A stretch of 30,153 bases of DNA. Source: a virus. The notes beneath the pieces are model-generated. The model saw only the letters and a list, made by a program, of their open reading frames with translations. It ran no database searches and had not been told where the DNA came from. How positions within the stretch are numbered: the stretch's first letter is position 1; each line of letters starts with the position of its first letter. Positions 1,003-24,051 of this stretch are shown here, in pieces. The stretch lies in the IMG/VR virus record IMGVR_UViG_3300046096_000025, positions 1 through 30,153 of that record; one strand, written 5' to 3'. Both the position numbers and the translations under genes were made by a program.

Positions 1003-1031
1003 TTGCTCTCTTAGTATTTTTATTGTATACT
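1003..1031 (+). promoter_or_regulatory. Candidate promoter for the rightward HNH gene (leaderless)
   Basis: TTGCTC (1003-1008), a 17-base spacer and TATACT (1026-1031) resemble a sigma70 promoter with a good -10 box and a weak -35 box. Transcription would begin at about 1038, the A of the HNH start codon. There is no Shine-Dalgarno sequence, so the mRNA would be leaderless. The site overlaps the ribosome binding region of the leftward acetyltransferase gene. Confidence 0.45.
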
Positions 1032-1037
1032 TTACTT

Positions 1038-1394
1038 ATGGCACGACCAAAATCAGATCCTAACACTAGATTCTTTTCTAAAATTGAAATAACAGATGAC
1101 TGTTGGCTTTGGCGCGAAGGTCTTGATCGAGATGGATACGGTTTATTTGGATATGAAGGCAAGCAATGGCGTGCCCACAGATATATGAAACACATAACCG
1201 ATGGCTTAGACAATACTAAACCAGTAGTCATGCACACCTGTGACAATCCTAGTTGTGTAAATCCAGACCATCTTGTTAATGGCACTGTGCAAGAAAATAA
1301 TTTAGACAAACATCTAAAAGGCCGAAACAGAGGTTGGAAATTTCCTTCTTGGAAGAAAGGTAAAAAGAAACAACCTGACGGAACTTGGAAATAA
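1038..1394 (+). CDS. HNH homing-type endonuclease (HNH_3 family), only rightward gene
   Basis: The 118-residue product begins MARPKSDPN. It has the layout of the small HNH_3 phage nucleases: DDCWLWREGLDRDGYG near the N-terminus, then AHRYM, then the catalytic and zinc region VVMHTCDNPSCVNPDHL, followed by GTVQENNLDKHLKGR. The tail is lysine-rich and basic. These enzymes nick or cut DNA and often spread as free-standing homing endonucleases. The gene is opposite in strand to every other gene and is wedged between two minor tail genes. Its stop is separated by one base from the stop of the leftward neighbour. An upstream in-frame start at 1023 falls inside the promoter, so the ATG at 1038 is preferred. 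A second, diverged member of the same family lies at 16252-16716. Confidence 0.87.
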   Translation: MARPKSDPNTRFFSKIEITDDCWLWREGLDRDGYGLFGYEGKQWRAHRYMKHITDGLDNTKPVVMHTCDNPSCVNPDHLVNGTVQENNLDKHLKGRNRGWKFPSWKKGKKKQPDGTWK

Positions 1395-5571: not shown

Positions 5572-5889
5572 TTAATTTTTTCCTTTGATTGTTTTTAAAC
5601 TTGGACCAATAATACCATTGGGTGCTTGCTTACTGCCTCGCATACCTCTGGAAGTCATATGGCGTCCTCTATCTAAGACTGGAACATATGGCACATCATT
5701 TGATAATTCAAAATCTCTGTCATTCACAGTCTTTTTCCATCCGCCCCTTGCCGCTCCCGTTTTTACCGGAGTGGTTTTGACAACTTCAGTAAAGAGATCG
5801 TCAGCCAACCTCTTTACTGTGCTCCTAAGTTCATCATTGACCTGACGAATAGTCTGATCAATACCAACCACTTGGACTTTAAAAGTCAT
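5572..5889 (-). CDS. HK97 gp10-like tail completion / minor tail protein
   Basis: The 105-residue protein has the signature of the HK97 gp10-like family: a helical N-terminus, then TPVKTGAARGGWK near residues 40-53, then the strand NDVPYVPVLDRG. It ends in a basic, glycine-rich region (HMTSRGMRGSKQAPNG). These proteins sit at the head-tail joint and complete the tail. Its ATG overlaps the stop of the second tube gene in TAATG. The gene order is unusual, because in most siphoviruses this gene precedes the tail terminator and tube genes, while here it follows both tubes. Confidence 0.85.
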   Translation of the reverse strand: MTFKVQVVGIDQTIRQVNDELRSTVKRLADDLFTEVVKTTPVKTGAARGGWKKTVNDRDFELSNDVPYVPVLDRGRHMTSRGMRGSKQAPNGIIGPSLKTIKGKN

Positions 5890-6299
5890 TACGCCCAGCC
5901 TAGTGAACCTGTGCCCTGGAATGAAATGCTCGCTTCGATCATTCCATCAAAACTACCGTTAACTGTGTAACCAGTGACGATAACTTCACCACTCCATGCT
6001 GTGCCTGTGCCAGTTGGGTAAACTGTCAATGTAACAACCTTGTTAGTAGCACCAACACTACCTGCTGTTGGATTTGCATCCACAGTGGTAAAGTGAGTCG
6101 GATCCCAATACACATCAGCAGTGCCGCTAAAAGAACTAATTCCTTTAACATACTGACGTGTGCTATTGCCCATGATTGTCTTTTCGATTGTGTCAGCAGT
6201 TGCTTCGATACTGTATGAACGAACTTCTGCTACTGTTTGTGCTGATCCTGCGTCATCATCTAAAGTGATTGCGCCAGCGTTGCCTACATAAACTGTCAT
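5889..6299 (-). CDS. Major tail tube protein, second tandem paralogue
   Basis: The 136-residue protein is a clear duplicate of the gene immediately upstream. Both share VAEVRSYSIE near the N-terminus, then STRQYVKG and SSFSGTADVYWDP in the middle, and NGSFDGMIEASISFQGTG near the C-terminus. The middle third, where tube surface loops are expected, differs between the two. The alternating strands and the strand-final motif fit the tail tube beta-barrel fold. The ATG is preceded by AGGAGACTAAT. Whether both copies form one mixed tube, or one caps or decorates it, cannot be told from the sequence. Confidence 0.85.
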   Translation of the reverse strand: MTVYVGNAGAITLDDDAGSAQTVAEVRSYSIEATADTIEKTIMGNSTRQYVKGISSFSGTADVYWDPTHFTTVDANPTAGSVGATNKVVTLTVYPTGTGTAWSGEVIVTGYTVNGSFDGMIEASISFQGTGSLGWA

Positions 6300-6311: not shown

Positions 6312-6731
6312 TTAACCTGTAGTTGCGTATGTTAATGCGCCAGTTCCTTGGAAACTGATGCTTGCTTCGATCATACCATCGAATGAACCGTTGATAGTAT
6401 AACCAGTAACAATGATGTTACCTTCCATAACTTTGTCAGTGCCAGAACCTACATCGCCTTCTGGGTAGATGGCCAATGCTGCACCTGCGTCACCAACTGA
6501 TGCGAAGATCTCGCCGTCAATGTTGTTGGTGCCTGTGAAGTGTGCTGGATCCCAATACACGTCTGCTGTTCCACTGAAACTGCTTAGACCTTTAACATAC
6601 TGGCGAGTTGAGTCGCCCATAACTGTTTGCTCGATAGTATCAGCGGTCATCTCGATACTATAACTTCTTACTTCTGCTACGGCCGCCCCATTGATCTTGA
6701 TGGCGCCGGCATTGCCTACGAATGATGTCAT
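6312..6731 (-). CDS. Major tail tube protein, first tandem paralogue
   Basis: This 139-residue tube protein lies just upstream of its paralogue with a 12-base gap. It has the same landmarks (VAEVRSYSIE, STRQYVKG, SSFSGTADVYWDP, NGSFDGMIEASISFQGTG) but a different central insert containing TGTNNIDGEIFASVGDAG and a different C-terminal tip. Its ATG overlaps the stop of the 69-residue gene in ATGA. The position after the tail terminator and before the chaperones is normal for the tube protein. Both reading frames are intact, so neither copy is a decayed remnant. Confidence 0.86.
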   Translation of the reverse strand: MTSFVGNAGAIKINGAAVAEVRSYSIEMTADTIEQTVMGDSTRQYVKGLSSFSGTADVYWDPAHFTGTNNIDGEIFASVGDAGAALAIYPEGDVGSGTDKVMEGNIIVTGYTINGSFDGMIEASISFQGTGALTYATTG

Positions 6732-6937: not shown

Positions 6938-7374
6938 GCTGTTCCTCTCAAATAGTTATAGCGGACTTCTAATTCGATTAATAATTCTGCTAGTGGTGCA
7001 AGACGATCAACAATTTCAATTTTAGTAATTTGACTGTCCATTACACCTTGTGCTTTAAGACCCAAGTAGCGGTCTAGTTCAAGTTGTTCTTCAATGGCTT
7101 CTAGCATTTCATTGCGTCTTTGATCCAATTCTGAACCACGCACATACGCACGAATGTCAATACGTATTGTGCCTTGTCTGCGGCCAACACCTGGAGCACC
7201 CAGTGTTACAGTGCTACGATCTTCTTGACGAAGAATTACCACTGCGGCAGGAAACTGAGTAATGGCGATCTTGTCAATCTCAATTTGTTCGCGTGTAATA
7301 AAGTTGATGCGAGGCTCTTCGATTTCAGTAAGTGTGCGCTCGATCTCTTTAATGATATCGTTGCGTAAACTCAT
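6934..7374 (-). CDS. Probable tail terminator protein (lambda gpU-like position)
   Basis: The 146-residue protein shows the alternating helix-strand plan of tail terminators. An N-terminal helix (LRNDIIKEIERTL) is followed by a strand with FPAAVVILRQED, then TIRIDIRAYVRG, then a helix RRNEMLEAIEEQLELD, and a closing strand LLIELEVRYNYLRG. Such proteins cap the tube and join it to the head connector. It overlaps the connector gene upstream and the 69-residue gene downstream. The call is based on fold pattern and gene order; no catalytic site is expected in this family. Confidence 0.65.
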   Translation of the reverse strand: MSLRNDIIKEIERTLTEIEEPRINFITREQIEIDKIAITQFPAAVVILRQEDRSTVTLGAPGVGRRQGTIRIDIRAYVRGSELDQRRNEMLEAIEEQLELDRYLGLKAQGVMDSQITKIEIVDRLAPLAELLIELEVRYNYLRGTA

Positions 7375-7812
7375 TATCTTACTAGCCTTAATGTGTTCTT
7401 AGATTGGGTTTCTGTCCCTGGACTGAATGTATCGTCTTCGTTAACGTCATAACGAACGCCTTCGCGTAGGCAAAGATCCATCTCGTGGTCAAAGCGGCCT
7501 TGATAGTATTCCATTTTGACTTGGAAGTTATCTTGCTCTACTTCGAACTTGCTTAGTTTAGGGAAAATGTGATATGCTAGAGCGTGATACACTGTGGCTT
7601 GTGTCCACTGTGTTGGGTCTAACAATGTTGGGTCCAGCGGCGTTGCACTGCTGATTGCATTCTTGGCTCTGAATTCTTGATACCAACGAACTGTCAATAC
7701 ACGATTAACTTCAGTTTCAGATCTGGCTAATTCTACATCCCAATCTAGGACACCGTAGTCCTGTATAGTTGGTTCGACCTGTAATAAGTCGTCAAGGGTT
7801 GCGTAAGCCATG
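7374..7812 (-). CDS. Head-tail connector / adaptor (HK97 gp6-like position)
   Basis: The preferred start is the ATG at 7810-7812, preceded by GAAGGA at suitable spacing, giving 145 residues beginning MAYATLDDLLQVEP. A longer frame to a TTG at 7892 would start inside the U-tract of a terminator hairpin and is unlikely. The protein is largely helical, with VNRVLTVRWYQEFR and YHALAYHIFPKLSKFE in the middle and a C-terminal FDHEMDLCLREG region. This resembles neck adaptor proteins in size and helix content. It is the first gene of the neck-tail unit, downstream of a promoter and terminator region that separates it from the capsid gene. Confidence 0.65.
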
Positions 7813-9690: not shown

Positions 9691-10077
9691 TTACGCTTTG
9701 GCATTGGAGGCTTTGGCCTCTTTTTGTTTTTTTCTGTTCTGCTTCCTCTTACGGGCAAGTTTCTCATTTCGTTCTTCCTTGGTTAAATGTGTTGGATGCA
9801 ATACATCTGTATGTTGGGTAGAGATGTAAGCAAGCAAATTTCTTGCAAACACCCCTAGTCGCTCCCGGGTCATTTGGCTTCTGGGCATGTTATTTTCTAT
9901 CTTGCCCAGCATTGTGTTGCAACCACGATGTAAAACTTTTCTAATCAATCCTGTTTTATGACAGTGATCAAGGACCGCGTCCAACCCAACAGCCTCACCA
10001 CATAAGGCACATTTGTGATTCTGATGTGATAGTTGGGTTTCACGGTATTGTTTTATCTCAGTGGTTTTTAACTTCAT
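9691..10077 (-). CDS. Recombination endonuclease VII-like nuclease
   Basis: The 128-residue protein has the endonuclease VII pattern: zinc ligands C23-x2-C26 (CALCG), then the catalytic LDHCHKTGLIRKVLH segment with D37, H38 and H40, then C53-N54. The second zinc pair is H50-x2-C53 where T4 gp49 has Cys-x2-Cys. The C-terminal 30 residues are very rich in Lys and Arg. T4 gp49 resolves branched DNA before packaging, so a role in clearing branched DNA is plausible; many such genes are also mobile. The gene lies between portal and scaffold, a place often taken by a head morphogenesis gene. Its start has little Shine-Dalgarno match. Confidence 0.87.
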   Translation of the reverse strand: MKLKTTEIKQYRETQLSHQNHKCALCGEAVGLDAVLDHCHKTGLIRKVLHRGCNTMLGKIENNMPRSQMTRERLGVFARNLLAYISTQHTDVLHPTHLTKEERNEKLARKRKQNRKKQKEAKASNAKA

Positions 10078-15371: not shown

Positions 15372-16255
15372 TATGCAAATCCTTTAGCAAGTGAGGCAAA
15401 GTAGTTAGTGCCATCATAATAAATGCTGGCGATATCAATGCTGTTGGCTGCTGTGCTTAATGTCTTAATACCACCAGCCCATTTCATAGTTGAAGTCAAT
15501 GTTCTACTTCCTGTTGCATCCTGAACAATCTTTAGTGTAATACTTTGTCCAGCCACAGGACTAGCAAATGCGTTTAGAGTCAAGTTACCGTTAAGTGTAA
15601 TGGTCTGCACGTTGCCGTTAGTAGCGTTAGGGGTAATAGTTCCTGAAGTTGTGCCAATACTGTAAATGGCTCCTTCTCCATAGTTCATTGCTGATATTAC
15701 TGTTTTGCCAGTGCCGTTCGGTGTAATGCTAATGTTGCCATTGCTTACGGATACGATACTGTTACCGTTAACATCAAGACTGCCACCCAATTGCGGTGTA
15801 GTGTCCGCCACAATGTCAGCCAATGCACCAATGCCTGCTGCTGTTGGTGGTGTATATGTAAACACGCCTGTGGTGTTGTCATAAGCAATGCTGCCGTCGC
15901 CACTTGCTGTGCCTTCTGTGCCTACACTAAGATCAGTAAGGTCAATGCCTGCATCACCGTTGATCCAATCAGCACCATCATAGATCAATATTTGACCTGT
16001 GACTGGAGTTGTAATTACTACATCTGTAAGTTCATCTAATGTAGTCGCACCACTTGCGCTGACGTCAGCGGGTGTAAATGTAAACACACCTGTGGTATCA
16101 TTATAACTTAAACTGCCTCCACTGCTGGCTGTGGCAGTGCTTACACTGAGATCAGTTAATTCAATCTTGTCTGTGTTAAGATTGGTTATGTTTGCATCAC
16201 CTTCTGTCCAACTCAGAGCACTGCCCTTCGTGGCTCTTGTGTAAATTGTTGTCAT
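15371..16255 (-). CDS. Modular tail fibre protein, short paralogue
   Basis: The ATG at 16253-16255 with GGAG 6 bases upstream is chosen over a TTG at 16267; it overlaps the HNH stop in ATGA. The 294-residue product starts with a module shared with the 496-residue fibre (ATKGSALSWTEGDANITNLN here). It contains two copies of a repeat with GSLSYNDTTGVFTFTP and GSIAYDNTTGVFTYTP, and a GNISITPNGTGKTVI unit. The last 75 residues (from about TITPNATNG to FASLAKGFA) match the end of the longer fibre closely, including VQDATGSRTLTSTMK. Shared ends with variable middles suggest recombination-driven fibre evolution. Confidence 0.8.
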   Translation of the reverse strand: MTTIYTRATKGSALSWTEGDANITNLNTDKIELTDLSVSTATASSGGSLSYNDTTGVFTFTPADVSASGATTLDELTDVVITTPVTGQILIYDGADWINGDAGIDLTDLSVGTEGTASGDGSIAYDNTTGVFTYTPPTAAGIGALADIVADTTPQLGGSLDVNGNSIVSVSNGNISITPNGTGKTVISAMNYGEGAIYSIGTTSGTITPNATNGNVQTITLNGNLTLNAFASPVAGQSITLKIVQDATGSRTLTSTMKWAGGIKTLSTAANSIDIASIYYDGTNYFASLAKGFA

Positions 16256-16716
16256 ACGTGTCTCCAAGTTTTATTATGTTTGATGTCTGAAATAATAACT
16301 TTTGAGACACCATATTTCTTTCCTAACATTGCTCCAAGTTTCTTACCATTGGCAAGTTCTTGTTTTATTTCTTTAACATCTTGTTCAGTAAGTTTGCTGG
16401 CTGGATTTTTACTGCCAATTAATGTTCTTCCTGATTTGACGCAATCTAAAGCATTGTCTTTTGCTGTTCCTACATTTAAATGATTTGGATTACAGCAACT
16501 TGGATTGTTGCACATGTGTCTAATCATCTGTCCTTCTTTTATCGTCTTTCCAGATAAAAGCCAAGCAATCTGATGAGCACCTGTTTTTTTGTAGATGTCA
16601 GGATAAAACAAATGTGTTCTTCCGTAACCATCTGCATCTTTTCTCATTTTCCAATTCCAGCAATCTGTAGATTGATTAATATCTACATTACTCCAGAATT
16701 TTTCTTCTTTATTCAT
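16252..16716 (-). CDS. HNH homing-type endonuclease with C-terminal helix-turn-helix
   Basis: The 154-residue protein has the HNH_3 layout: STDCWNWKMRKDADGYGR, then GAHQIAWLLSG, then the zinc and catalytic region IRHMCNNPSCCNPNHL and GTAKDNALDCVKSGR. Residues about 100-154 form a DNA-binding tail (KLTEQDVKEIKQELANGKKL, then YGVSKVIISDIKHNKTWRHV), typical of free-standing homing nucleases. It lies between two fibre genes in the same direction and ends in an ATGA overlap. It is probably a mobile insertion, although it is neatly coupled to the fibre gene downstream. A shorter relative lies at 1038-1394. Confidence 0.88.
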   Translation of the reverse strand: MNKEEKFWSNVDINQSTDCWNWKMRKDADGYGRTHLFYPDIYKKTGAHQIAWLLSGKTIKEGQMIRHMCNNPSCCNPNHLNVGTAKDNALDCVKSGRTLIGSKNPASKLTEQDVKEIKQELANGKKLGAMLGKKYGVSKVIISDIKHNKTWRHV

Positions 16717-21244: not shown

Positions 21245-21706
21245 TTAATCCGCCCAGGGCAATGGTTGTTGATCTTCGCCATCTGTTGGCTGATCTCGCA
21301 TACCCAATAAGTTCTTTGCTAAGAATATCTGAACTGCGGCATTGTTATTTTGGATAGCATTGGTCAACATAGCCCTGCGTAATCGCTGTTTTAAGTCAAT
21401 ACGGGCTTTTGCCAGAAATCCCTTAAAATTGTAGCGCAATGTCTGTTCATCAATGCCAAACCAATCAGCAATGTCTTTGTCACTGCATCCTAAGGCACCT
21501 AACTTATAAACGTCATCAGGTGGCACAATGGCTTGTTTATTGCCACGTCCAACCTTAAGACCCTGTTTGGTCACTTCTCCCCATTTAGGGTTTTTGCGTT
21601 CGTTATATTCCCACTTAGGCACTGAGCCTGTTTGCTCGGGCTCTTCTGAGGGTAGTAAGGGCTGGTCTTCAAACCCTTCATCTAAATCATCGTTAATATT
21701 GTCCAT
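21245..21706 (-). CDS. Terminase small subunit candidate (helix-turn-helix protein)
   Basis: The 153-residue protein has an acidic N-terminus and a homeodomain-like helix-turn-helix at about residues 67-92 (LGALGCSDKDIADWFGIDEQ and following helix). A helical region then ends in AAVQIFLAKNLLGMRDQP. That last pattern (helix, then A-K-N-x-L-G-M-x-D) is common in TerS-like proteins. It is separated from TerL by about 8.4 kb of appendage genes, which is unusual. It lies between two terminators, so it may have its own promoter. No ribosome site precedes the ATG. A regulator is the alternative reading. Confidence 0.6.
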   Translation of the reverse strand: MDNINDDLDEGFEDQPLLPSEEPEQTGSVPKWEYNERKNPKWGEVTKQGLKVGRGNKQAIVPPDDVYKLGALGCSDKDIADWFGIDEQTLRYNFKGFLAKARIDLKQRLRRAMLTNAIQNNNAAVQIFLAKNLLGMRDQPTDGEDQQPLPWAD

Positions 21707-21727: not shown

Positions 21728-21750
21728 AAAAAGCCCACTTATTTGTGGGC
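21728..21750 (-). terminator. Intrinsic terminator after the polymerase operon
   Basis: GCCCAC/GTGGGC (21745-21750 with 21733-21738) is a perfect 6-bp G/C-rich stem with a 6-base loop, followed leftward by TTTTT (21728-21732). It ends the unit that starts at the 24.0-kb promoter. Confidence 0.85.
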
Positions 21751-21758
21751 AGTTTGGG

Positions 21759-22013
21759 TTAGATTTTCGGAATGTATAAGAAACTTACAAAGTCATTTTC
21801 CCAAGCGTCTTTGTTGGGTAATGTTCGCAAAGCCCTTAACCATTGCCTAGCAGTATAACCTTGGCTTCTAACTAGAGTATAAACATCTCGTATCCAATAC
21901 TCATAATCACCCAGAGATTTTCCACTGGACCAATTAAAATCACTATGTTCTAGTTTAAACAACATCCATTGATAGTGCCAAATCATTTGTATTTTCTCTG
22001 CATCATTATTCAT
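21759..22013 (-). CDS. Small hypothetical protein in the polymerase operon
   Basis: The 84-residue protein is rich in Trp, Tyr and Arg and is largely helical (KIQMIWHYQWMLFKLEHSDF; LVRSQGYTARQWLRALRTLP). It has a GAGGAAC ribosome site and follows the 99-residue gene closely. It lies downstream of the polymerase in the unit ended by the terminator at 21728-21750, so it may be an early or replication-associated gene. No family recognised. Confidence 0.6.
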   Translation of the reverse strand: MNNDAEKIQMIWHYQWMLFKLEHSDFNWSSGKSLGDYEYWIRDVYTLVRSQGYTARQWLRALRTLPNKDAWENDFVSFLYIPKI

Positions 22014-22020
22014 AAGTTCC

Positions 22021-22320
22021 TCACTCTTCAGAATATTTTATTTTGGTTAACAATGTTCTTTTACTCCACTCTGAATAAATCTTGTTCTTTTCTAATTCGC
22101 TTAGATTGCTATACCAAATTACCAATTCAGTGTAGTCATTGATTGCATCTTTGTAAACATCTGAGTATGATTGATCCATCGCAGTTAATCTTGACTTCTT
22201 GATGAACTTCTTTTCCCATACTTCTGCGATTGAATCCAATGGTCCATTGTTTTTCCATTCACAATACCCTAACACAACTGAAGCAAAGATTGCTTCAAAA
22301 CCTTCATAACTATTTGCCAT
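22021..22320 (-). CDS. Hypothetical acidic helical protein in the polymerase operon
   Basis: The 99-residue protein is helical and Trp/Tyr-rich, beginning MANSYEGFEAIFASVVLGYC and ending in a charged helix (SEWSKRTLLTKIKYSEE). It has a strong AAAAGGAAG ribosome site and lies 11 bases after the polymerase stop. It probably shares a transcript with the polymerase; the function cannot be guessed. Confidence 0.62.
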   Translation of the reverse strand: MANSYEGFEAIFASVVLGYCEWKNNGPLDSIAEVWEKKFIKKSRLTAMDQSYSDVYKDAINDYTELVIWYSNLSELEKNKIYSEWSKRTLLTKIKYSEE

Positions 22321-22331
22321 TTTTCTTCCTT

Positions 22332-23984
22332 TTATTTGTTTGTTTTGATTAGTAACTCTTGTATAAAGTTTGGTAAGCCTGTTTGTTGTGGGTAAAACTC
22401 CTTTTCTAATTGCTGTAATTCTAATTCACTATATCCTTCATAATGAAGGTCATTTCTGATATCATAGTGTTCCATGTGCTTGTTTTCATCCCAGTAGCCT
22501 GAATCAAAATCTTCATACTTTTTAGTTGACTCAGTTTTGTATTCATCTACTACAGGATTCACATATGGTTGACCTAATCTTTCCGCATACTGCATTGCTT
22601 GTAGTTCTTCTTGTCTAATGGCGGTTTGATGTTGTATAATTTCCTGATTGTCTTGAAATCGCCAGGCTCGGTGTCGTTCTTGATCAATGCGGCCATTAGT
22701 AATGTGCTTTTGTAACAATGCCCTAAGTTCTGCTAACGGAACTGATTTCTTAGTATAGATAGCATCATGACAACGAAGTAAGATTTCGTATTGACTGAAC
22801 TCTGCTTCAAGAATAGCCATTACTTCTGCTTCTTTGTGCTGATACAACCAACTGACTGTTTTGTTAATACTAAGTTGTCCTCTAGCATTTTGAATCTCTT
22901 TGTGATCTCTTAGATTTTCTTTATTAGCATTAAAGATTGCTTTGTTGAGATGTGTTTGTTCATTGATGAATTCTTTTACCCAAGCATCTTCTAAAAACAG
23001 TTTTAGTTTTTCAGTGCTGTGAATAATATCTCCAAGACTAGTAGAGCGCCATTGACCGTTTTCTTCACGCCATACTGCATTAGTCGCCCTAGCACCAAAG
23101 CCGATGGCTGTGATTAACTGTTTAACGGTTTTGATTGTGCGTTCGTAATCATTGCCAAATAACAAGTGAGCAATGCGCTGTCTAAACTTGCTTTTGTTTT
23201 CTAAGTAACGCTCAGTAGCATAAAACTGTTGATGTTCATAGTGTTGATGGTATTCATGTAGTTTCCAAGCAAATACTGAACTTTCAATGTCATACTGATA
23301 GCAGTCACCTAAGGCAGCATGGCGAACTACTCGACTAACACTTTGTAAGTTTGGTCCTCGGTAGTATTTGCGACCAAAGAGACTCCAATTGATTACTTGT
23401 GGCAATTGATTATTCATTACTGATGCAATGCTTTGAATCAATTTAGCCTGCTTTTGGTTCATGGCCAATGTGGCTTGGTGTTCTTTATTTCTTGCTTCAA
23501 CTGAATTATTGGCCAGTATATAAGCCTCTAGGCTCTGCTGATCAATTGGCGCCCAATCAATTGATGAATCAGGAAGATCAGCAAAATCTTGATAATAAGC
23601 ACGAACAATGGCTTTAGGCTCATTGGCTGCTAGTAATATGTCTAAATCAATTATGGATTTTACCATAGTAAGTATTCCTGTTTTTCCTACTTTATGGCCT
23701 CTTTGGACTTGTGTCATAAGTGGATAATTTTCTTGAAACCAATCAAACCAATACTGCTGATGGCCTCTTGGACCAAACTTTCCGCATTGGTGTCTCAGTT
23801 GGCTAAAACTCACGGGCAGTATATCTTGATTGATTTGATCCTCAGTGGCCAAGTGAAATCCCTTAATCAAAGCCGCACGGGTGTGATTAAAGTAATTCAG
23901 GGCTATATCTTTTGGATTAGATGTTTTTGGACTCACAACCATAATGGCTTGAGTAATTTGTTTTAAATTAAAAAGTTCGTGCAT
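22332..23984 (-). CDS. Divergent family A (PolA-like) DNA polymerase without recognisable exonuclease
   Basis: Starting at the ATG 23982-23984 gives 550 residues; an upstream ATG at 24038 lies inside the promoter spacer and is rejected. Family A marks appear in order. PNLQSVSR (211-218) matches the family's PNLQNIP motif, and YQYDIESSVFAW gives motif A with D232. K288 lies nine residues before G297 in a motif-B-like TAIGFGARA. QHKEAEVM (382-389) resembles the Q-G-T-A-A-D helix, and CHDAIYTK gives motif C with H406 and D407. Spacings D232-K288 (56) and K288-D407 (119) are close to E. coli Pol I (53 and 124). Two features are odd: V237 replaces the usual steric-gate Glu, and motif C is HDA where HDE is usual. 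The N-terminal 200 residues show no clear exonuclease motifs. Function is probably replication. Confidence 0.8.
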   Translation of the reverse strand: MHELFNLKQITQAIMVVSPKTSNPKDIALNYFNHTRAALIKGFHLATEDQINQDILPVSFSQLRHQCGKFGPRGHQQYWFDWFQENYPLMTQVQRGHKVGKTGILTMVKSIIDLDILLAANEPKAIVRAYYQDFADLPDSSIDWAPIDQQSLEAYILANNSVEARNKEHQATLAMNQKQAKLIQSIASVMNNQLPQVINWSLFGRKYYRGPNLQSVSRVVRHAALGDCYQYDIESSVFAWKLHEYHQHYEHQQFYATERYLENKSKFRQRIAHLLFGNDYERTIKTVKQLITAIGFGARATNAVWREENGQWRSTSLGDIIHSTEKLKLFLEDAWVKEFINEQTHLNKAIFNANKENLRDHKEIQNARGQLSINKTVSWLYQHKEAEVMAILEAEFSQYEILLRCHDAIYTKKSVPLAELRALLQKHITNGRIDQERHRAWRFQDNQEIIQHQTAIRQEELQAMQYAERLGQPYVNPVVDEYKTESTKKYEDFDSGYWDENKHMEHYDIRNDLHYEGYSELELQQLEKEFYPQQTGLPNFIQELLIKTNK

Positions 23985-24021: not shown

Positions 24022-24051
24022 TTTATAACATATATCATATAGAGGTGTCAA
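24022..24051 (-). promoter_or_regulatory. Strong sigma70-type promoter of the polymerase operon
   Basis: TTGACA (24046-24051), an 18-base spacer and TATAAA (24022-24027) give a full -35 and a five-of-six -10 match. Start near 24015 leaves about 30 bases before the ATG at 23984. It lies just downstream of the terminator at 24271-24305 and would fire early using host RNA polymerase. Confidence 0.78.

Follow-up and report, generated by a model that had tools for sequence, protein, structure and literature searches.

A divergent TV-Pol-like family A polymerase gene in a 30-kb phage record and its relatives in other viral contigs

The locus and its genomic setting

The window, meaning the whole stretch of DNA analysed here, is a phage record of 30,153 bases that looks like a complete genome because the same 127 bases stand at both of its ends. 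Its structural genes are related to those of phage DSL-LC06, pelagiphages HTVC202P and HTVC026P, and Vibrio phages, and its large terminase matches that of phage DSL-LC06 at 47%. Two adjacent paralogous genes (5889-6299 and 6312-6731; 71% identity over 146 nt) likely encode major tail proteins. Small HNH/endonuclease-VII-like genes are dispersed in the structural region (1023-1394(+), 16252-16716, and 9691-10077), one of them on the opposite strand.

The gene under study encodes a predicted A-family polymerase resembling the transposon-virus polymerases (TV-Pols) and is followed by two small open reading frames (ORFs) in the same row (Table 1). The 84-aa ORF gives a weak match to the MCM7 winged helix (E 0.035). 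Between this ORF and a terminase small subunit-like gene (21245-21706) lies a GC-rich hairpin (21733-21750) with T following it on either strand, similar to a bidirectional terminator.

Table 1. Positions of the polymerase gene, its neighbours and its key residues in the window (residue numbers of the 568-aa form; Pol I residues are those of E. coli)
Feature	Position	Strand	Remarks
A-family (TV-Pol-like) polymerase gene	22332..23984	-	550 aa from inner ATG
N-terminal domain, helices and beta wing, winged-helix-like	23565..23933	-	residues 36-158
99-aa ORF, possible operon partner	22021..22320	-	11 nt downstream of polymerase; no homologue found
84-aa ORF, next in same gene row	21759..22013	-	no homologue found
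R223, hairpin arginine (Pol I R668)	23370..23372	-	38/38; aligned by hhalign
Q232 of GPNLQ (Pol I Q677 of PNLQNIP)	23343..23345	-	conservation and hhalign
D250, motif A catalytic aspartate (Pol I D705)	23289..23291	-	model strand 246-252, conservation
V255, steric gate position (Pol I E710)	23274..23276	-	alignment of 38
R286, family-invariant fingers arginine	23181..23183	-	alignment of 38
Motif B (O-helix), K306...T310...F314-G315-A316 (Pol I K758, F762, Y766, G767)	23091..23123	-	conservation and hhalign
Q400 and E403 of YQ..E helix (Pol I Q849 region; Q400 on Q849)	22830..22841	-	conservation and hhalign
H424-D425, motif C (Pol I H881-D882)	22764..22769	-	conservation and hhalign

An in-frame upstream ATG at 24038 would extend the polymerase to 568 aa. 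The family alignment and the structural model favour the inner ATG (23984), and residues 1-21 of the longer form have pLDDT under 50 in the model. Promoter-like sites around the gene, scanned as host-type promoters, occur only at the level of shuffled sequence and do not decide the start. Residues are numbered here in the 568-aa form; the numbers of an earlier first-pass annotation of this DNA are lower by 18.

Sequence searches and the family in viral contigs

The window polymerase has no match in Pfam, PHROGs, NCBIfam or PDB sequences. The PF00476 (DNA_pol_A) profile, which the first-pass annotation had put forward as a check, matched neither the window protein by hmmscan nor the genome in a six-frame search in which ten control genomes were positive, and tblastn of the protein at E 1e-5 matched 0 of 50,697 phages. 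At E values up to 10, two Polaromonas plasmids match at the stretch of PNLQ, motif A and motif B. The plasmid proteins (501 and 538 aa) possess the entire motif set and lead to the next relatives, Microcystis phage Ma-LMM01 gp030, Vibrio phage GR11A_00066 and a 767-aa ORF, not annotated, of Desulfovibrio phage 7757. In this set of six very distant proteins 14 columns are invariant, including G-R, Q, D, K, GA, Q..E and HD. Two other genome matches (L100 and L101) were discarded as a chance WREENGQW peptide within a short unrelated protein. A six-row profile found no match among 388 genomes of one phylum in a scan that had no positive control, and the profile of the whole family matched no PDB chain by sequence.

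A search with a degenerate DNA pattern (GR.Y-x5-LQ-x6-R.A.L-x6-D, then an aliphatic residue or Phe) identified 42 viral contigs, and a full homologue is present in 41 of them (E 1e-25 to 1e-54 with the six-row profile). This result led us to abandon the view that only the window phage has the gene. With relatives in at least 41 other viral contigs the gene is no lone oddity, and its product takes its place among the TV-Pol-like polymerases found in mobile elements. Against a profile that left it out, the window protein reaches 472 bits, compared with 9 bits for the best PolA control. Across 38 aligned sequences the homologues are 19-40% identical to the window protein, the nearest of them (L145, from a record of 29.7 kb whose end repeats are 123 bases long) reaching 40% over 528 residues. 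The family is under purifying selection, with dN/dS of 0.12-0.22 in ten homologue pairs. None of the 38 members has a convincing match in Pfam, PHROGs or NCBIfam, and a single one touches the PHROGs 'DNA polymerase' family at E 0.005.

Other TV-Pol-like proteins were seen along the way. Record G012, whose terminase is 57% identical to that of the window, encodes a shorter and different one (L095 10066-11124, minus strand; 352-362 aa, with DYDIESC and HDG) that scores 31.8 bits against the family profile. Nitratidesulfovibrio phage SRB7757 (142.6 kb) encodes an unannotated 767-aa protein (L106:4200-6503(+)) whose gate residue is V and which is extended at its C terminus. The TV-Pol-like gene of Vibrio phage GR11A (L105:4951-6804) is followed by a ribonuclease HI gene (7061-7720), which would suit the removal of RNA primers.

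Predicted fold

The AlphaFold2 model, built from a 38-row alignment, has a mean pLDDT of 81.4 and exceeds 90 over most of residues 190-460. Family A polymerases make up all 50 of the Foldseek matches listed against the PDB (best E 6e-7). The VIA-align Z scores are 17.3 (Pol theta), 15.5 (T7 DNA polymerase) and 15.3 (Klenow); residues 157-458 of the model align with Klenow 537-923, and identity in the structural alignments is about 10-15%. When BFVD is searched by fold, three uncharacterised proteins of uncultured phages come first, followed by virus replication proteins, all ahead of DNA polymerase I; the matches include V6BPG7, a 'DNA replication protein' of Zamilon. In hhalign comparisons, the Polaromonas plasmid proteins score 99.6%, the phage set of Ma-LMM01, Vibrio GR11A and Desulfovibrio 7757 scores 98.3% and the Pol I set 52-74%, while five unrelated phage families score 0.6% or less.

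Both the family and the predicted fold are well supported: this gene encodes an A-family (PolA/T7-like) polymerase core. The first-pass annotation had suggested comparing a predicted structure with Pol I and T7 DNA polymerase, and had named scattered motifs or a fold without the palm-fingers-thumb arrangement as the contrary outcome. The model has a palm/fingers fold, preceded by helices 167-179 and 185-207 before the hairpin, and the motifs stand in PolA order, so that the contrary outcome was not observed. Correspondence to Klenow residues is drawn from VIA-align ranges and hhalign columns in place of single-residue superposition: R223, Q232, K306, Q400 and H424-D425 fall on Pol I columns, and D250, where the hhalign path gaps, is assigned by motif order, conservation and its model strand.

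About 158 residues precede the polymerase core, too few for a 3'-5' exonuclease domain, and no match to such a domain was found in the window protein by sequence or by fold. About 120 of them form an N-terminal domain (pLDDT 84.5 in the model). Winged-helix proteins, ORC2 and plasmid Rep/Pi initiators among them, dominate its fold matches, with weak Z scores of 5.3 or less, and Foldseek returned nothing significant for it. By topology the domain is likely, if tentatively, a winged helix, and it is probably a DNA-binding domain that replaces the exonuclease.

Active-site motifs and sugar-selector positions

All of the PolA-order motifs reported in the first-pass annotation are present, its D232, V237, K288, G297 and CHD(A) 406-407 being D250, V255, K306, G315 and H424-D425(-A426), respectively; the hairpin arginine R223 had been missed. 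In the alignment of 38 sequences, from which all invariance counts are taken, R223, Q232, D250, K306, Q400, H424 and D425 are invariant. The first three of these belonged to the search pattern. Also invariant, and outside the pattern, are A242, G244, R286, K306, F314, G315, A316, Q400, E403, H424 and D425. Since positions unused in the homologue search are invariant in all 38 sequences and dN/dS is low in the ten pairs, the motif match is not due to chance. R223 also occurs in 6/6 distant relatives that were found without R223 in the search, and R223, D250 and D425, present in 38/38, are likewise found in 6/6 sequences of the wider set. The spacings in the window and in E. coli Pol I are 9 and 9 residues (R-Q), 18 and 28 (Q-D), 56 and 53 (D-K), 94 and 91 (K-Q), and 25 and 33 (Q-D). 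An intact active site is well supported.

In Pol I, E710 and F762 exclude ribonucleotides. The position equivalent to E710 is V in 25 sequences, S in ten, A in two and I in one, and never E; that of F762 is T in 37 and S in one, and that of Y766 is F in all 38. The third residue of motif C, after HD, is A (18), C (11), G (8) or S (1). The V at the gate and the HDA of motif C pointed out in the first-pass annotation are real, and the gate Glu is replaced across the whole family (38/38). The loss of both sugar selectors suggests that this polymerase family may use ribonucleotides and, because both equivalents are replaced throughout the family, a primer made by these enzymes may be RNA or mixed. 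R286 is a possible substitute for R754 of Pol I, which is missing at K-4. The earlier description of the protein as an exonuclease-less PolA relative without the ribose-gate glutamate holds for its fold and motifs, but the protein is not a canonical PolA, as PF00476 does not match.

Gene context and distribution

Gene context was read in the window and in 18 other polymerase-bearing records. Nine of the records (window included) have the head and tail genes of the window, five have another structural set and two a third. The polymerase tree conflicts with these capsid groups, as its starred branches force at least three changes for the first group and at least four for the second, and the polymerase gene has moved between capsid lineages. 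Phages of the window's capsid lineage without such a gene also exist, and the host machinery can therefore do the bulk copying. Two of them, G005 and G010, have terminal repeats and for this reason are apparently complete genomes, and another, G012, has the shorter TV-Pol-like protein described above in its place.

No conserved partner gene was found flanking the polymerase across the phages, and no integrase, recombinase or transposase was recognised near it. In G408, G418 and G422, ORFs of 64-71 aa abut the polymerase stop and have in common a loose pattern like GLYCGN..W..W; a counterpart is absent beside the window gene. DnaB_C, SSB, ResIII and D5_N have no match in the whole window genome or in 15 other polymerase-bearing records (16 in total), and as far as these profiles reach, the polymerase is indeed the only replication enzyme, as the first-pass annotation had it. 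A Pfam SSB search recognised no OB-fold partner of the CcPol-MP type beside the polymerase gene.

Comparison with known systems

The closest known class is that of the TV-Pols, represented by phage Ma-LMM01 and virophage replication proteins. Gene contexts led to the proposal that TV-Pols (Iyer, Abhiman and Aravind 2008) are primase-polymerases; TV-Pols are characterised by a hairpin arginine, two metal-binding aspartates, RxxxK in the fingers, a thumb of two antiparallel helices and no fused nuclease (PMC2579912). They are linked to a D5 helicase, or to a recombinase or transposase, although standalone forms also occur, and Ma-LMM01 is named as a TV-Pol-carrying phage (PMC2579912). The window clade shares the minimal palm/fingers core, the hairpin arginine, the two metal aspartates, the lack of a nuclease domain, a length of 400-600 aa and the mobile-element setting; Ma-LMM01 gp030 belongs to its 98.3% hhalign set, and virophage-type replication proteins are close by fold. 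Unlike TV-Pols, it does not conserve RxxxK, with R286 lying 20 residues before K306 and K-4 being mostly I, V, L, E or Q. The window also has no D5 helicase, either fused or in the genome, and no recognised adjacent recombinase or transposase, and its polymerase has a winged-helix-like N-terminal domain. Although we take the polymerase to work in the manner of the TV-Pol carriers' enzymes, to which it is related by sequence, the lack of a conserved RxxxK and of a linked D5 helicase or recombinase keeps us from filing it as a strict TV-Pol. Ma-LMM01 gp030, likely the founding phage member of TV-Pol, is also without R at K-4 in the alignment, and RxxxK may not discriminate.

CcPol, the only TV-Pol-like polymerase biochemically studied according to PMC7581432, primes de novo together with its partner MP, which is recognisable only by structure prediction; CcPol keeps the E710 and F762 equivalents and uses dNTPs (PMC7581432). 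The window clade is similar to CcPol-MP and the PolA-SSB primases of SCC elements (PMC7581432, PMC10061031) in its A-family core, its mobile-element setting and the lack of a second primase. It differs from CcPol in having neither the E710 nor the F762 equivalent, and in that an OB-fold partner and a helicase were not recognised. By analogy with CcPol-MP, we propose that the window polymerase may act in priming.

Similarly, divPolA2 (AUR84708) has an A-family palm, an N-terminal globular domain and no exonuclease, and has a short GR.Y..G.QN stretch in common with the window clade; its motifs A and C read DFKAFE and FDE, whereas the clade has V/S/A/I and HD[ACGS]. Barbaviruses with divPolA2 also have a regular PolB (PMC11348598). 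Identity with divPolA2 was dropped, given an hhalign value of 2% and an HMM score of 1 bit to AUR84708, the one divPolA2 sequence compared. E. coli Pol I (Klenow) and T7 DNA polymerase share with the window clade the fold and the order of the R668, Q677, D705, K758, Q849 and H881-D882 equivalents, but the clade lacks their PF00476 match, exonuclease domain and E710 and F762 equivalents. F314 stands where T7 RNA polymerase has Tyr. The window polymerase falls outside canonical PolA and divPolA2, and its gate is unlike that of CcPol.

The hypothetical proteins of Polaromonas plasmids pW9NP1 and pH8NP1 (PMC6015842) are relatives over their full length of about 500-540 aa and contain every core motif, although they differ from the window clade in having H at the gate and HDG in motif C, at about 21-22% identity. 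These plasmids carry their own Rep protein, and in pW9NP1 (L102:37-2497) the related polymerase gene lies directly before repA; in the text searched, the plasmid paper (PMC6015842) makes no mention of the gene.

Proposed function and alternatives

We consider the chances slightly better than even that the window polymerase is an origin-bound primase-polymerase that hands over to the host replisome. The protein would be an active template-dependent polymerase of the A-family superfamily, from the TV-Pol-like branch of plasmids, transposons, virophages and phages. Its N-terminal domain would hold the phage origin or its single-stranded template, the polymerase core would make the first primer or short strand at the origin, as RNA or mixed, and the host DnaB helicase and Pol III replisome would then copy the phage genome. 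Catalytic activity, priming, origin binding, NTP use and host hand-over are steps that we infer; a primase or NTP-using activity is plausible from family precedent and the gate residues. Because the lineage can replicate without the gene, an add-on for starting the phage's own replication is likelier than a bulk replicase. For the start of replication in the smallest tailed phages that lack helicase, primase and SSB genes, the window gene is a concrete candidate. It is one unannotated gene common to capsid lineages that are otherwise little alike, it extends the TV-Pol-like polymerases to a clade outside the coverage of Pfam, PHROGs and NCBIfam, and the family-wide loss of both sugar-selecting residues yields a direct prediction on RNA versus DNA synthesis.

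More tentatively, and on balance with some doubt, the family as a whole, lacking both ribonucleotide-excluding residues and having an N-terminal DNA-binding domain, could be a one-gene, origin-specific maker of RNA or mixed primers that serves several unrelated phage lineages of ~30 kb, a type of primase distinct from DnaG, AEP and CcPol-MP. Counting against the primase-polymerase reading are the lack of a recognised OB-fold partner and of a conserved neighbourhood that would tie the gene to replication, the weak winged-helix match and the non-conserved RxxxK.

A distinct replicase, as raised in the first-pass annotation, would copy the whole genome and use the host only for unwinding. T7 is replicated by a family A enzyme. 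The family A fold, the fact that no other polymerase is recognised in the phage and the known swapping of polymerases between phages (PMC11348598) all suit such a role, but a helicase, an SSB and a processivity partner are not recognised, the exonuclease domain is missing and both dNTP selectors are gone. Given that the apparently complete G005 and G010 of the same lineage lack the gene, we regard a whole-genome replicase as unlikely. A-family enzymes are related to T7-like RNA polymerases, and the loss of the E710 and F762 equivalents would also fit a single-subunit RNA polymerase that transcribes the phage genes, as T7 RNA polymerase does; a comparable suggestion has been made for divPolA2 (PMC11348598). 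This reading is less probable still, as hhalign gives 0.1% to T7 RNA polymerase (a single sequence compared) versus 52-74% for Pol I, the structural matches listed are DNA polymerases and the scan for host-type promoters near the gene stayed at shuffle level.

The absence of a proofreading domain, the patchy presence of the gene and Pol theta as top structural match are what a phage repair or translesion polymerase would predict. We nevertheless consider that role improbable for the sole nucleic acid polymerase recognised in the window, whose relatives adjoin plasmid repA or are virus replication proteins. Finally, the gate and motif C residues differ from the Pol I consensus, as they might in a catalytically dead remnant retained as a DNA-binding factor. 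Such a remnant is very hard to reconcile with metal-binding and template residues that are all invariant in the 38 sequences, and with the dN/dS of the ten pairs.
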